Assembly (NCBI GenBank): GCA_030614255.1
Contig: JAUWKI010000013.1
Span: forward strand, 1 to 33,022
Source of the DNA: Actinomycetes bacterium
GTDB taxonomy: Bacteria > Actinomycetota > Aquicultoria > UBA3085 > Oleimmundimicrobiaceae
Direction: 5' to 3'
Length of the DNA: 33,022 nucleotides
Part shown: positions 411-32,796 of the stretch, piece by piece
Layout of the letters: every line of letters begins with the position of its first letter
How positions within the stretch are numbered: position 1 is the stretch's first letter
The notes under the pieces: model-generated
Databases searched by the model: none
What the model saw: the letters and a program-made list of their open reading frames with translations, nothing else
Told to the model about the DNA's origin: nothing
Made by a program: the position numbers and the translations under genes

Positions 411-3400
411 CTAGAAATCATCTCCGTGTCTGTGGCAATCAAAACAATACGGCCAACTACTGCCGCCGGTGCCATGAGGAATACTAGTATGGCATTCCTG
501 GCACATATCCCAGGCACCCACGCCGCGGGCGCTGGTTACTGACACCGAGCCACCGTCGATGGTCTCCTTGATATGATAGATATTACTACTTCCGTGGGGA
601 TCGTGGCATTCTGTGCAAGGTAACGGATTCATGGGTGATTTATAAGGAGCACTTATACGAGAACCCCCGGAACCACTACCGTGAGCATCAGTAGTATATG
701 CTGTTGCAATATTTTTGGTTTTTGTCGCCGTCCATGTAACACTTGAAGGAGGAGAATTATCATGACATTTATTACAGAAAGTAGGTGTATCGAGCTTCGT
801 TTCATCTCCAGTTGTATAATTTACAGTCATAGTTGTCACAAAGTGTTGGGTTCTGTCATCTGGATTGATAACCACACTTGAAGTGCTACTTAGCGAGGTC
901 GTGTTTATATGTGCATTGTGACAATCACCGCATTCCATTTTAACGCCATCTGATTGATAAGTATGTTGATCAGCATATGAGATATCATGCTGAGTATTAA
1001 TCAAGGCATTCGTTCCAGCCGAAAATCCAGTTGCGCTTCCTTTGTTGAACTGATTCTCAATATCTATTCCATTAACTGAGCTTGCCACCGAGTGACAAGC
1101 GCCGCTTGAAGACGAACCGCCATAACATAAGTACTCTTCATCGCTATATGTGCTATCTGAGCTTGTTCCATATGCCCATCTTAAAAGCAGATAGTCGAAG
1201 GCCGTACCGTCTCCCCTGTCTTTTCCATGAGGATTGTGGCAGTTTATGCACTGTTTCGCTTCAGCTCCACCCGTTTCGAAACCACCTCCAGTATCGGAGG
1301 TCGATGGCCACACATTATAAGCACTCGCGCTCACCCCATGGCCCGAAGCCGTATAAGTTGTCTTACCCCTATACGAATATGTGGAGCCAAATGAAACGGA
1401 TGAATCATCGTGACACATGTAACATAGTTGATTCTTCTCGGACGCAAGATAACTTGTGTCTCTTTGCAAATCCGTGTATCGAGAGCCATGAACATCGTGA
1501 CAGTTCAAACAGAGTCCCCTCGCATACGAAGTATCGGGATAAGTCCCAAGAGCACTTGTCGCCGCACCAGTCGCGTGTTTGCTCGCCTCAAATATGGTCT
1601 CACCCCACCAGGCATCGGCGGTGCCTGTCAAGTAAGATAACTTTTCATGACAGGCGTAGCAAGCCGTATTGTTGTTTCCGGTTACCGTCGTTCCCCTTAT
1701 TGAGCTCCTCACCAATTTAGCGGTGCTGGATGGGTCGTAATGGGGCACATGACAACTGTCGCAGTATTTTATCGTCGAGTCGTCGGGTTCCGTATCGGGC
1801 TCTATAGAGTGCGCTGAATAACACGTTGTGTCCCGATAACCAAATTTGGTCTCTATATCCGTTGAGCTGCCCGTTCCATCGTGGCAGACATAACAAGTAT
1901 CCTTCTGCGTAGTTCTACGGAAGACAAAGGTAGAGCCTACAGCTCTATGTATCTCGTGACAATCTTTGCAAAGATCCGTTGCATCCTCATAAACTCCGTG
2001 AGGCTTTTCGCTACCAGAAGCGGCCTCAGGACCCGCAACATCCGAAAAAGTCCCCAACCCAACTCCATTTCGCGCAAATATAGCGTAGTAATAATCTTCG
2101 CCAGGAATAACCGATGTATCCTGATATGTCAAAGTTACACTATCCGTACTCCCAACAGCCTCATCGGTGCGGTCTACGGTCGCATCGATAGAGCGATAGA
2201 CCTCGTAACCATCTATTTCACTTTCGGCATCAGAGGCCGCAACCCAGTTCACAGTAATTAAACTATCCCCGGGCGTAAGAGTCACATGAGGCGGTGGGGT
2301 TGCCGGCCACACCGGAGGTGTGGAATCCCAGGTCGCTCCATACCCACTAAAGATGGTCGTTACAAGAGATATAGTCGAATTAAGCTCACTTACAACCCCA
2401 CCGGCAAAAGACCAGTCTAAATCATCCCAGTGGGCTAAAAATAGTAAATTTGCCGGATTCGAGGTACTATATCTAACTGTCAAAGTCGCCCCCGAAGACA
2501 AGGTAGCCCCACCAAGACTTATGTCAAAGTAATCACTTATCAACGTTAAACCAGCAGGTGCAGTCGTATCGTAAATATCCACCGTAGTATTTGCCGAGAG
2601 TGCGTTCGGGGGAATCACCAAAGAAATTTCTCCGTTTGCCGCCTCAAGAGAACCACCGTTAATTTTACTTATCGTCTTGGACATGTTGGTCTTCTCGTTC
2701 CTTGCCCTAGAGGTTTTACTGCTTTCATTTTGAGTTCCTTGGTCAATTGCCGATATCTTGTACCAGTAGTACTGTTTGTTCTTAGTAATGACATCATCGT
2801 AGGTCGTGACCCCAACATCGGTTGAGTGAATGGGGTTGTAAGACCCTTTTTCGGAAGAAGCACGATATATCTTATAGAAGACATTCGCCTCGGGATTTAA
2901 ATTCCAAGTAAGGTAATTTTTGCCGTCTTGTGCTTCCACAACAAGCCCCGATGGAATCTGCGGTGGACGGGTAGAAAAACTCCAAGTATAGTTGCTTGCC
3001 ATGTTATGTCCTGCCAAATCTTTTACCCCCGTAGTTATGGTGGCGGTATAGTTGTGGTCGGTCACAAGGTCTGAGGTCGGATTAAGGGTTGCCTTTTTAA
3101 GCAATTCGTCGTAGCTTACCGCGCCCGTTACGCTGCTTCCAATTGTATCGTCATAAAGGGTAAATGTGGACGTAGTTATGGTGCCGGGCTCCATCGATTC
3201 ACTGAAAGTAGCATAGATGTTTGCCGCATTAGCAACACCAACAGAGCCATCAACAGGGTCTGTGCTCAAAACAGTTGGAGGCGTTGTATCTACCGTTACC
3301 GTGTTCCCGGCGCTTGGGGTCTCGACATTGCCCGCATTATCGGTTGCCTTAGATTGTATGGTGTAAGTTCCATCTTCAGGCAAGGTCCAGACATACTCCC

Positions 3401-4508
3401 AGGTGCTAAAGTTGGTTCCCGTATTTGTAGCCGCATTCCAGGTATCGCCGCCATTGGTTGAGGTTTGAACCCCCCCTACATCCGAGCCAGGAGATGGGTC
3501 GCTCGCCGTTCCCGTCACTGTATATGTGGGGCCAGAGGTTATATAGCTACCATCGGTGGGAGCAGTTACCGTAGATGAGGCGTGCTGGGTATCGATTTTA
3601 AAATCGCAGACTTTAGTTACCTCCTGATTTGTGTAATTGTCAACGCTGTAATACCAGATGTCGCGCCAACCCTCGGTACTGGACTGAACAGCCCCGGAGT
3701 ATGTTGAAAATCCCGTTGTTGGAGTAGCTACACCATGTGCCGTCCATTGATAATAAGTGGCCCCCGGCTCATCTCTGGTGAGAGTAACCGTTGGGTTAGT
3801 TATATACCAACTGTTATTGCCGTCAGGAGATGTGGGATTTACTGAAAGAGTAGTTACCGGAGGAGTTGTGTCATATACGATATCCAAACTTATATCGTCA
3901 AAGTCGGCCCCACACTGCCCCTTATCAGAGCCCATAGCCGCGCCGGCCTGTAAATTCCAGCATATTTTGATAGTCCAACTGCCAGTCGCTCCCGCCTGAA
4001 TATTGCTTTTTACATCTATGTTGGTTTGAGCATTCCAAGCACCCGTTCCCACAGCTTGAGTTGCGATATCCGTCCACTCATAGTGGGTAATCGAACCGGG
4101 ATCAATTAACTGAACTTTGATATTATGCTTTTGTGAGGTGGCATTTACGGCCCATTTCCGCCAGGTGAAGTTCAAAGTCGCACTGACAACGTGGGCATCG
4201 ATATAATCCACGGTAAAACTCTGAGTAGCATTCCCCGCCCATGTGTCCCCATCTGCACGTTTGGTTTGACCGCGCATGCAGCCAGTGCCATCGGCCGTGG
4301 CCGTATCGGTATTGTATAAAATCCCATCATCACTACTACTGGAGGCAGCTTTTGAAAGCGTCCAATTGTTTAAATTTCCATTAAAGGTCCCGTTTGTTAT
4401 AACATTAGCAGCAAAGCTAAAAGTGGAGATAATTATGCATAAAATACACACGGTCAATACCAAGAAACCTTGTTTTATTCTCTTTTTGCCTCTTAAAAGA
4501 GACTTCAT
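411..4508 (-). CDS. Giant secreted multiheme cytochrome with Ig-like/Big_5/Fn3-like N-terminal region and doubled-CXXCH C-terminal region
   Basis: Signal peptide (KQGFLVLTVCILCIIISTFSFA); SbsA/Big_5-like 'PPTVLSTDPVDGSVGVANAANIYATFSESM'; Fn3-like segments; 12 canonical CxxCH motifs. Start moved to ATG at 4508, which has GGAG upstream; the ORF track begins at TTG 4520. Confidence 0.88.
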   Translation of the reverse strand: MKSLLRGKKRIKQGFLVLTVCILCIIISTFSFAANVITNGTFNGNLNNWTLSKAASSSSDDGILYNTDTATADGTGCMRGQTKRADGDTWAGNATQSFTVDYIDAHVVSATLNFTWRKWAVNATSQKHNIKVQLIDPGSITHYEWTDIATQAVGTGAWNAQTNIDVKSNIQAGATGSWTIKICWNLQAGAAMGSDKGQCGADFDDISLDIVYDTTPPVTTLSVNPTSPDGNNSWYITNPTVTLTRDEPGATYYQWTAHGVATPTTGFSTYSGAVQSSTEGWRDIWYYSVDNYTNQEVTKVCDFKIDTQHASSTVTAPTDGSYITSGPTYTVTGTASDPSPGSDVGGVQTSTNGGDTWNAATNTGTNFSTWEYVWTLPEDGTYTIQSKATDNAGNVETPSAGNTVTVDTTPPTVLSTDPVDGSVGVANAANIYATFSESMEPGTITTSTFTLYDDTIGSSVTGAVSYDELLKKATLNPTSDLVTDHNYTATITTGVKDLAGHNMASNYTWSFSTRPPQIPSGLVVEAQDGKNYLTWNLNPEANVFYKIYRASSEKGSYNPIHSTDVGVTTYDDVITKNKQYYWYKISAIDQGTQNESSKTSRARNEKTNMSKTISKINGGSLEAANGEISLVIPPNALSANTTVDIYDTTAPAGLTLISDYFDISLGGATLSSGATLTVRYSTSNPANLLFLAHWDDLDWSFAGGVVSELNSTISLVTTIFSGYGATWDSTPPVWPATPPPHVTLTPGDSLITVNWVAASDAESEIDGYEVYRSIDATVDRTDEAVGSTDSVTLTYQDTSVIPGEDYYYAIFARNGVGLGTFSDVAGPEAASGSEKPHGVYEDATDLCKDCHEIHRAVGSTFVFRRTTQKDTCYVCHDGTGSSTDIETKFGYRDTTCYSAHSIEPDTEPDDSTIKYCDSCHVPHYDPSSTAKLVRSSIRGTTVTGNNNTACYACHEKLSYLTGTADAWWGETIFEASKHATGAATSALGTYPDTSYARGLCLNCHDVHGSRYTDLQRDTSYLASEKNQLCYMCHDDSSVSFGSTYSYRGKTTYTASGHGVSASAYNVWPSTSDTGGGFETGGAEAKQCINCHNPHGKDRGDGTAFDYLLLRWAYGTSSDSTYSDEEYLCYGGSSSSGACHSVASSVNGIDIENQFNKGSATGFSAGTNALINTQHDISYADQHTYQSDGVKMECGDCHNAHINTTSLSSTSSVVINPDDRTQHFVTTMTVNYTTGDETKLDTPTFCNKCHDNSPPSSVTWTATKTKNIATAYTTDAHGSGSGGSRISAPYKSPMNPLPCTECHDPHGSSNIYHIKETIDGGSVSVTSARGVGAWDMCQECHTSIPHGTGGSSWPYCFDCHRHGDDF

Positions 4509-4510
4509 CT

Positions 4511-4534
4511 CTAGCTCCAATTTTTAGTCTTCAT
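4511..4534 (-). CDS. Possible 7-codon leader ORF (MKTKNWS)
   Basis: ATG with GGAG ~6-7 nt upstream; stop TAG lies 2 nt before the cytochrome ATG. Confidence 0.35.
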   Translation of the reverse strand: MKTKNWS

Positions 4535-4728
4535 AAAACTACTCCACAACCCTTTTTTTCTATACGACCCATAATTCCCCATCTTTTAACTGGGTCTGAT
4601 CTAAGGTTTAGATATTTAAAAATATTACTTAGCTATGAAATTATACATCTTTTTATTCTGCCCATAACAAACTTGCCGTCTAACAGACAGCTATAAAAAT
4701 CGCCTCTACTACTATGTTCTTTCTAAAT

Positions 4729-4755
4729 TTATCGGCAGCATTAAGCTTTTCCTTA
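4729..4755 (-). promoter_or_regulatory. Candidate sigma-28/WhiG-type promoter TAAG-N15-GCCGATAA
   Basis: Minus strand TAAG (4755-4752), 15-nt spacer, perfect GCCGATAA (4736-4729), ~220 nt upstream of the giant cytochrome start. Confidence 0.5.
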
Positions 4756-4929
4756 ATGGAGCCCCACAGGTTAAGCCTGTGATACTCCCTTGCACGTCCA
4801 ATCGGGCAACATCCCCTGCCTGTCGGCAGATAGGGTCTGCGTCGAAGGATAAAGTTGAACTTTTTTTCACAAAGAAAATTATTGTACTTAATTTCGGCCT
4901 ATTCTCCTAGTGACACACTCCGATTTGAC

Positions 4930-5571
4930 TTATTCTGAATGCTCCTCTAACAATTCCTTCGCTTGGTCGTTGTCGGGGTCTATTTCTAATGCATTTTGCC
5001 ACTCGGTTATAGCTTGTTCTTTTTTGTCATTTTCCAAGTACACCAAACCGAGCTCTGTATGAACCGTGGCCATATCAAACCCGTAGGGATTAATATCGAC
5101 TATCTTCTCGTAGTGCAATTCCGCCTCGTCAAATTCTCCTTCGTCGAAATACATCTTGGCCAGCATAAATCTCGCACCGACAAAACTTTTGTCGTTTCTC
5201 ACAGCTTTTTTCATCGTCGCAATTGCCCAATTTTTCTTTCCCTTCGCCTTATAAACAATTGCCAAATTATAAAGTGCTCTTGAGTCATCCGGTTTTAGCT
5301 CAACCGCCTTCTCGTATGCATCCACCGCTTTATCAATATCTCCGAGAGATTCATATGTTTGACCTAAAAGATATTGAGCTTCAAAATCTTTTGGGTTGTT
5401 GGCAACAACTCTCTCTAACTCTTCCAACGCTTCTTCAAGCTTTCCTTTTTCATAAGAGGAAAATGCCTTCTGGTAGCTTCCGGTTTTTGTTACAGAGGGC
5501 TCCTTCTTCCCCCGTTCATACAGAAAATTGGGGACTTGAAAATAGACGGACAAAACCGCCATCGCCAACAC
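4930..5571 (-). CDS. TPR-repeat protein with N-terminal membrane anchor
   Basis: TPR motifs (AQYLLGQTYESLGDIDKAVDAYEKAVELKPDD...). In-frame codons upstream of the called GTG encode KKRKLFLGIVIII, completing a TM helix, so the true start is probably upstream. Confidence 0.85.
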   Translation of the reverse strand: MLAMAVLSVYFQVPNFLYERGKKEPSVTKTGSYQKAFSSYEKGKLEEALEELERVVANNPKDFEAQYLLGQTYESLGDIDKAVDAYEKAVELKPDDSRALYNLAIVYKAKGKKNWAIATMKKAVRNDKSFVGARFMLAKMYFDEGEFDEAELHYEKIVDINPYGFDMATVHTELGLVYLENDKKEQAITEWQNALEIDPDNDQAKELLEEHSE

Positions 5572-19659: not shown

Positions 19660-19857
19660 TCAGCTTCACCCCTTTTTTGTACAATTTTGTGAATAATTTT
19701 ACTTTTTAATATATAAGAGGAGCATGTCCCCCTTGCTCAGAGAACATGCTCACCCTTTTATCCTATCTTCTGACCTACCTGCAAACCTGCCTGCCCTGTC
19801 TCTGCCGACAGGCACGGCGGCAAGCACGGTAAGCCCCAACATGCCTCTTCATTCGCA

Positions 19858-32658: not shown

Positions 32659-32796
32659 AGTCAAGTTACACTAACGTCTAGCTCAAAGATATTTCATGCC
32701 CAATATCCCTGAACCACTCCCTGCCTGTCGGCAGACACGGCGTAACAAGATATTTAGTTAAGCTGTCTTCTGTTAAGCCATTTTCATTATTGGATG

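Follow-up and report, generated by a model that had tools for sequence, protein, structure and literature searches.

A candidate WhiG-type promoter facing a secreted multiheme cytochrome gene in an actinobacterial genome without detected flagellin

Which promoter directs the transcription of a giant surface cytochrome gene, and to which regulatory network would it connect that gene? The question is raised by the window analyzed here, a 33,022-nucleotide stretch of an Actinomycetes contig, in which the initial annotation placed a promoter of the sigma-28 (FliA/WhiG) class upstream of such a gene. The encoded protein is secreted, has 1,369 amino acids, and combines 12 CXXCH motifs with Ig/fibronectin-like domains. 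Translation likely starts at the ATG at 4508 (MKSLLRGKKR) rather than at the listed TTG at 4520, since the former is preceded by GGAG and is conserved in the orthologs of two relatives (G001 and G003). The features of the locus are as follows.

411..4508, minus strand: gene for the secreted multiheme cytochrome, whose N-terminus is hydrophobic and which has 12 CXXCH motifs besides Big_5/Big_13 and fn3 domains
4509..4722, minus strand: predicted 5' untranslated leader, ~214 nt long, that contains an alternative TATAAT (4640..4645) and a hairpin of -10.6 kcal/mol (~4660..4692)
4715..4724, minus strand: predicted transcription start region, about 4722, placed by promoter geometry ~7 bp past the -10 element
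4729..4736, minus strand: putative -10 element GCCGATAA, perfect against the flagellar/WhiG consensus (PMC8325347)
4752..4755, minus strand: putative -35 element TAAG, in the 15-bp register of the initial annotation, read from the sequence
4753..4756, minus strand: putative -35 element TTAA, in the 16-bp spacer register, read from the sequence and arranged as before the pilA-like gene at G000:C1:2255-2282
4930..5571, minus strand: upstream gene for a TPR-repeat protein, syntenic with the cytochrome gene in G001 and G003

The minus strand from 4756 to 4729 reads TTAAGGAAAAGCTTAATGCTGCCGATAA, and the same bases can be taken in two registers, TAAG-N15-GCCGATAA and TTAA-N16-GCCGATAA, each with a perfect -10 element and three of the four -35 positions; the match described in the initial annotation is therefore confirmed by the sequence, and holds in the second register as well. 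The other upstream sites in the home genome (G000) have the TWAA-N16 spacing, and a spacing of 15 bp also occurs in the class. As had been claimed, the site is intergenic, lying in the 409-bp spacer between the TPR and cytochrome genes and facing the latter, at ~221 bp ahead of its start codon (class median 57 bp, with 8 of 88 sites beyond 200 bp). The pattern TAAGGAAAAGCTTAATGCTGCCGATAA, at 4729..4755 on the minus strand, is matched once in the 33-kb window against 0.03 expected, which is suggestive only, as the site was picked by eye, and the genome provides the fairer test. A position weight matrix scan found no second WhiG-type site in the window, and none was found for the other cytochromes that it encodes.

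A genome-wide motif scan, suggested in the initial annotation as a check, gave a clear excess of sites. A wide search for TAAA-N12..18 in the home genome returned 10 matches against 6 in the control, and those lying ahead of genes had 16-bp spacers, apart from one 12-bp site before glnA, so the pattern TWAAG-N15-GCCGATAW (W, A or T) was adopted; a search allowing two mismatches was set aside as uninformative (285 matches against 255 in the control). The adopted pattern has seven matches in the 1.44 Mb of the home genome, where the reversed control has none and a second-order Markov model expects 0.37. In 36 genomes of the class, T[A/T]AAG-N15-GCCGATA[A/T] is found 149 times against 6 in the reversed control; because the home genome had already been seen and served to refine the pattern, the other 35 genomes form the independent part and the fairer test, with 142 matches against 6. 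In 24 genomes from other classes of the phylum, the counts are 8 and 2.

These counts bear on the possibility that the window match arose by chance and that the cytochrome gene is transcribed instead by read-through from the TPR gene or from a housekeeping promoter, such as one near the TATAAT at 4640..4645. Between 0.37 and 0.9 such motifs are expected by chance genome-wide, and 36 of the 140 class sites examined are intragenic and presumably fortuitous, while 88 lie upstream of and face a gene. However, only ~0.02-0.03 upstream-facing chance matches are expected in the home genome (an estimate, 0.37 multiplied by the upstream share of the genome), where five were observed besides the window site. 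The upstream sites also show preferences at positions that were not used in the selection: 66% have a T before GCC, and the sequence after the -10 element is A/T-rich. The window site has both the T and an A directly after the -10 element. Its overall flank score is ordinary: it ranks at the 16th percentile when set against upstream sites, above 81% of intragenic sites and above 90% of random window positions; taken alone, this score hardly separates it from the better intragenic matches.

The initial annotation named a fliA/whiG homolog as a prerequisite, and the home genome encodes two sigma factors of this family that exceed the curated TIGR02479 (FliA_WhiG) cut-off. For both, the best match among solved structures is the Streptomyces venezuelae WhiG complex (6pfj/6pfv). 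The better-matching one (G000:C3:38111) adjoins dprA- and xerC-like genes. Its paralog (G000:C43:65452, L007) adjoins gltX and a CheY-like gene. In addition, a homolog of the anti-sigma factor RsiG is encoded at G000:C52:13857 (Pfam PF22802, 1.9e-15, over the cut-off); its best solved matches are the Rubrobacter RsiG structures, and it carries a single c-di-GMP motif, in which E(X)3S(X)2R(X)3[Q/H](X)3D is present as EEKLSCQRRILHGKID. Flagellin (PF00669) had no match in the home genome, G001 or G003, and is present in G002 and G004 of the same family. The claim that a motility/development-type sigma factor controls the cytochrome thus stands in part: a WhiG-type promoter is the best reading and both sigma factors and a motif set are in place, but motility in the flagellar sense is inapplicable, as flagellin was not found in the home genome.

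The genes that follow the sites define a predicted regulon, in which targets were annotated with Pfam for ten genes and otherwise from sequence motifs and recognizable starts, and gene calls at the loci of relatives were simple open reading frame calls. Sites in the home genome precede N-methyl pilin (prepilin) genes at C36:4272 and C1:2255, the latter site being TTAA-N16-GCCGATAA and its pilin gene being followed by a prepilin-peptidase-like gene. Other sites precede genes for a PAS/GAF protein (C5), a GAF protein (C26), an HD-GYP protein (C21) and a CWB2 surface protein (C5), as well as a membrane protein gene next to rplI, for which orthologous sites are kept in G001 and G003; the GAF and HD-GYP sites each deviate from the strict motif at one position. 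Several of these targets had been considered as GGDEF proteins, an identity that was dropped when Pfam gave HD-GYP, PAS/GAF or no family. In other members of the class, sites were observed before pilM operons, pilins, pilT-like genes, motA/motB, GGDEF genes, and genes for receptor-like and secreted proteins. As delineated by the promoter motif only, the regulon covers genes of the type IV pilus and of c-di-GMP turnover.

In two class genomes of one lineage, G012 (L145, G012:C22) and G024 (L153, G024:C55), TTAAG-N15-GCCGATAA lies 22 bp upstream of rsiG itself, which suggests feedback. The motA/motB-like genes preceded by WhiG-type sites were found in G035, G022, G007, G032 and G033 (L211, L216, L221, L225 and L261), so the same sigma factor may serve the motors of flagellated members of the class.

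We therefore favor, with a probability of roughly 0.7 that expresses judgment and is not a computed value, the reading that a WhiG-type promoter controls the surface multiheme cytochrome; it is the best reading because the genome has two FliA/WhiG sigma factors and because the motif set, in genome and class, stands before pilus, c-di-GMP and surface genes. The motif, its enrichment before genes in the genome and the class, and the sigma and anti-sigma genes are computed results, and from them we infer the use of the window site, the choice of sigma factor and gating by c-di-GMP. Under this reading, a promoter of the sigma-28 (flagellar/WhiG) class would direct transcription of the cytochrome gene, most likely with the WhiG ortholog G000:C3:38111 or else with the paralog G000:C43:65452. 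The single-motif RsiG would hold WhiG inactive at high c-di-GMP and free it when c-di-GMP falls, a mechanism established in Streptomyces and Rubrobacter, and the cytochrome would be co-expressed with the type IV pilus and with c-di-GMP turnover and sensor genes. Counted in favor were the exact motif, its position and orientation, the few upstream sites expected by chance, the surface-protein regulon and a one-mismatch site in G003; counted against were the lack of conservation of the exact site, the long leader with its hairpin, and the fact that none of the 88 upstream class sites was seen to have a multiheme cytochrome gene as the first or second gene behind it.

The orthologous spacers speak to both the WhiG reading and its housekeeping alternative. 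In G001 and G003 the corresponding spacers are shorter and unrelated and lack the exact window site, and in both genomes the synteny of the TPR and cytochrome genes across a short spacer suggests co-transcription there; moreover, the TATAAT at 4645..4640 of the window is perfect. Nevertheless, no good -35 element is listed 16-18 bp before that TATAAT, and the G003 ortholog has a near match of its own, TAAA-N17-GCAGATAA, with one mismatch, in the -10 element, and a 17-bp spacer that is not the favored spacing. The G001 ortholog has two mismatches at best. Among 83 upstream regions gathered irrespective of motif, a site with at most one mismatch occurs only at the window gene and the G003 ortholog, where a shuffled control gives ~0.0045 per region. 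Taken together, we regard transcription from a housekeeping promoter or by read-through as unlikely, though less so than the other alternatives. A separate, exact WhiG-type site was observed in G003 (L130, G003:C15:5333) 44 bp past the cytochrome ortholog, before a gene for a beta-propeller-like protein; its counterpart in the window would lie near or beyond the contig end.

The predicted leader is longer than at most class sites, and its hairpin could attenuate transcription. A working WhiG promoter might then serve a small RNA or leader ending at the hairpin at ~4660..4692 instead of the cytochrome gene, a proposal to which the terminator-like hairpin 30-60 nt past the predicted start and the long distance from the site to the gene lend some color. 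The hairpin does not have a proper T run (AAGTTTGTTA), however, and no conserved small gene was found in the spacer, and we consider this reading quite improbable.

The initial annotation had also pointed to a short dyad, ATTAAG-N6-CTTAAT, over the -35 element, and two further features of the spacer need to be introduced here.

4745..4791, minus strand: adjacent hairpins GGGAGTATCACAGG..CCTGTGGGGCTCC and ATTAAG..CTTAAT, the second overlapping the -35 element; no Rfam family
4815..4830, plus strand: one copy of a short palindrome, CCTGCCTGTCGGCAGA, that is dispersed across the genomes of the family

The dyad is present, but other sites do not share it and it does not characterize this type of promoter, since the 409-bp spacer holds five dyads of this kind and the positions between the -35 and -10 elements of the 88 other upstream sites carry almost no information; a role as a promoter part was ruled out on the latter ground. 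The hairpins at 4745..4791 are probably a structure at the 3' end of the upstream TPR gene. On the minus strand, 4725..4845 has a stable multi-stem fold (z = -3.17) with the -35 element inside one stem, which could be taken to mean that the 120 nt round the site form a structured RNA, such as a riboswitch-like leader, with GCCGATAA as one strand. Against this, the fold lies upstream of the predicted start, covariance-model searches matched no Rfam family, whether at gathering or at relaxed thresholds, and no homologous copy was found in 60 relatives save the dispersed palindrome and one unrelated, similar hairpin in G003. The structure arises largely from the palindrome and a terminator-like hairpin, and is explained more simply as the end structure of the upstream gene together with the palindrome. 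Lacking Rfam matches or homologs, the structured leader was rejected as the least credible of the alternatives.

The similar hairpin, CACAG..CTGTGGGGCTCC, occurs once in G003 (L062, 1480-1540), flanked by a tRNA-like stretch and an FKBP-type gene, and was judged to be terminator-like rather than a homologous regulator. The palindrome CCTGCCTGTCGGCAGA has eight copies in the window with at most three mismatches (0.14 expected), for example at 4815-4830, 32720-32735 and 19801-19816.

Returning to control by WhiG, the closest known system is that of Rubrobacter radiotolerans, where Schumacher et al. (2021, PMC8325347) reported that a switch of WhiG, RsiG and c-di-GMP governs type IV pili as well as c-di-GMP enzymes. 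RsiG has been reported only from Actinobacteria (PMC8325347); together with WhiG, it points to an actinobacterial affiliation of the home genome. The predicted set in the home genome (two sigma factors, a single-motif RsiG and no flagellin found) matches that switch, and the two systems share a WhiG-family sigma factor, the consensus TAAA / GCCGATAA, and targets in pilus and c-di-GMP turnover; they differ in that here there are two WhiG paralogs, a multiheme cytochrome as a proposed extra target, and an uncharacterized lineage known from sequence. In R. radiotolerans, 12 of 20 predicted WhiG sites had mapped starts, of which three lay within the pilus cluster and five ahead of genes for c-di-GMP enzymes (PMC8325347). 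At such a validation rate, a predicted site is no proof. The promoters of E. coli FliA and B. subtilis SigD have the same -10 element, GCCGATAA, and a TAAA-type -35 element, whereas in the home genome, in contrast to flagellar sigma-28 systems, flagellin was not found, the predicted regulon consists of pili, signaling and surface proteins, and a 16-bp spacing is favored. Similarly, the Streptomyces WhiG regulon has an orthologous sigma factor and a related anti-sigma factor RsiG, but there RsiG is twin-motif and the targets are those of sporulation, while here a single-motif RsiG goes with surface targets.

The promoter type and the switch are thus already known, and the novelty lies in proposing a multiheme cytochrome as a target; WhiG and a multiheme cytochrome were not found together in the literature searched. 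On this basis we put forward, as a proposal with even odds, that in a flagellin-less actinobacterial lineage a WhiG/RsiG switch gated by c-di-GMP governs both type IV pili and a surface multiheme cytochrome, tying extracellular electron transfer to the decision to attach. If true, a single c-di-GMP/anti-sigma switch would set both pilus attachment and an electron-carrying cell surface in a poorly known lineage, and the range of the single-motif RsiG/WhiG system, here with a regulon predicted across the class, would extend beyond Rubrobacteria and Thermoleophilia, the groups from which it has been reported. Elsewhere in the class, WhiG-type sites were also observed in G021, G017 and G019 (L304, L310 and L292) before the gene for an XRE-like regulator paired with an apparent ImmA/IrrE-type protein.
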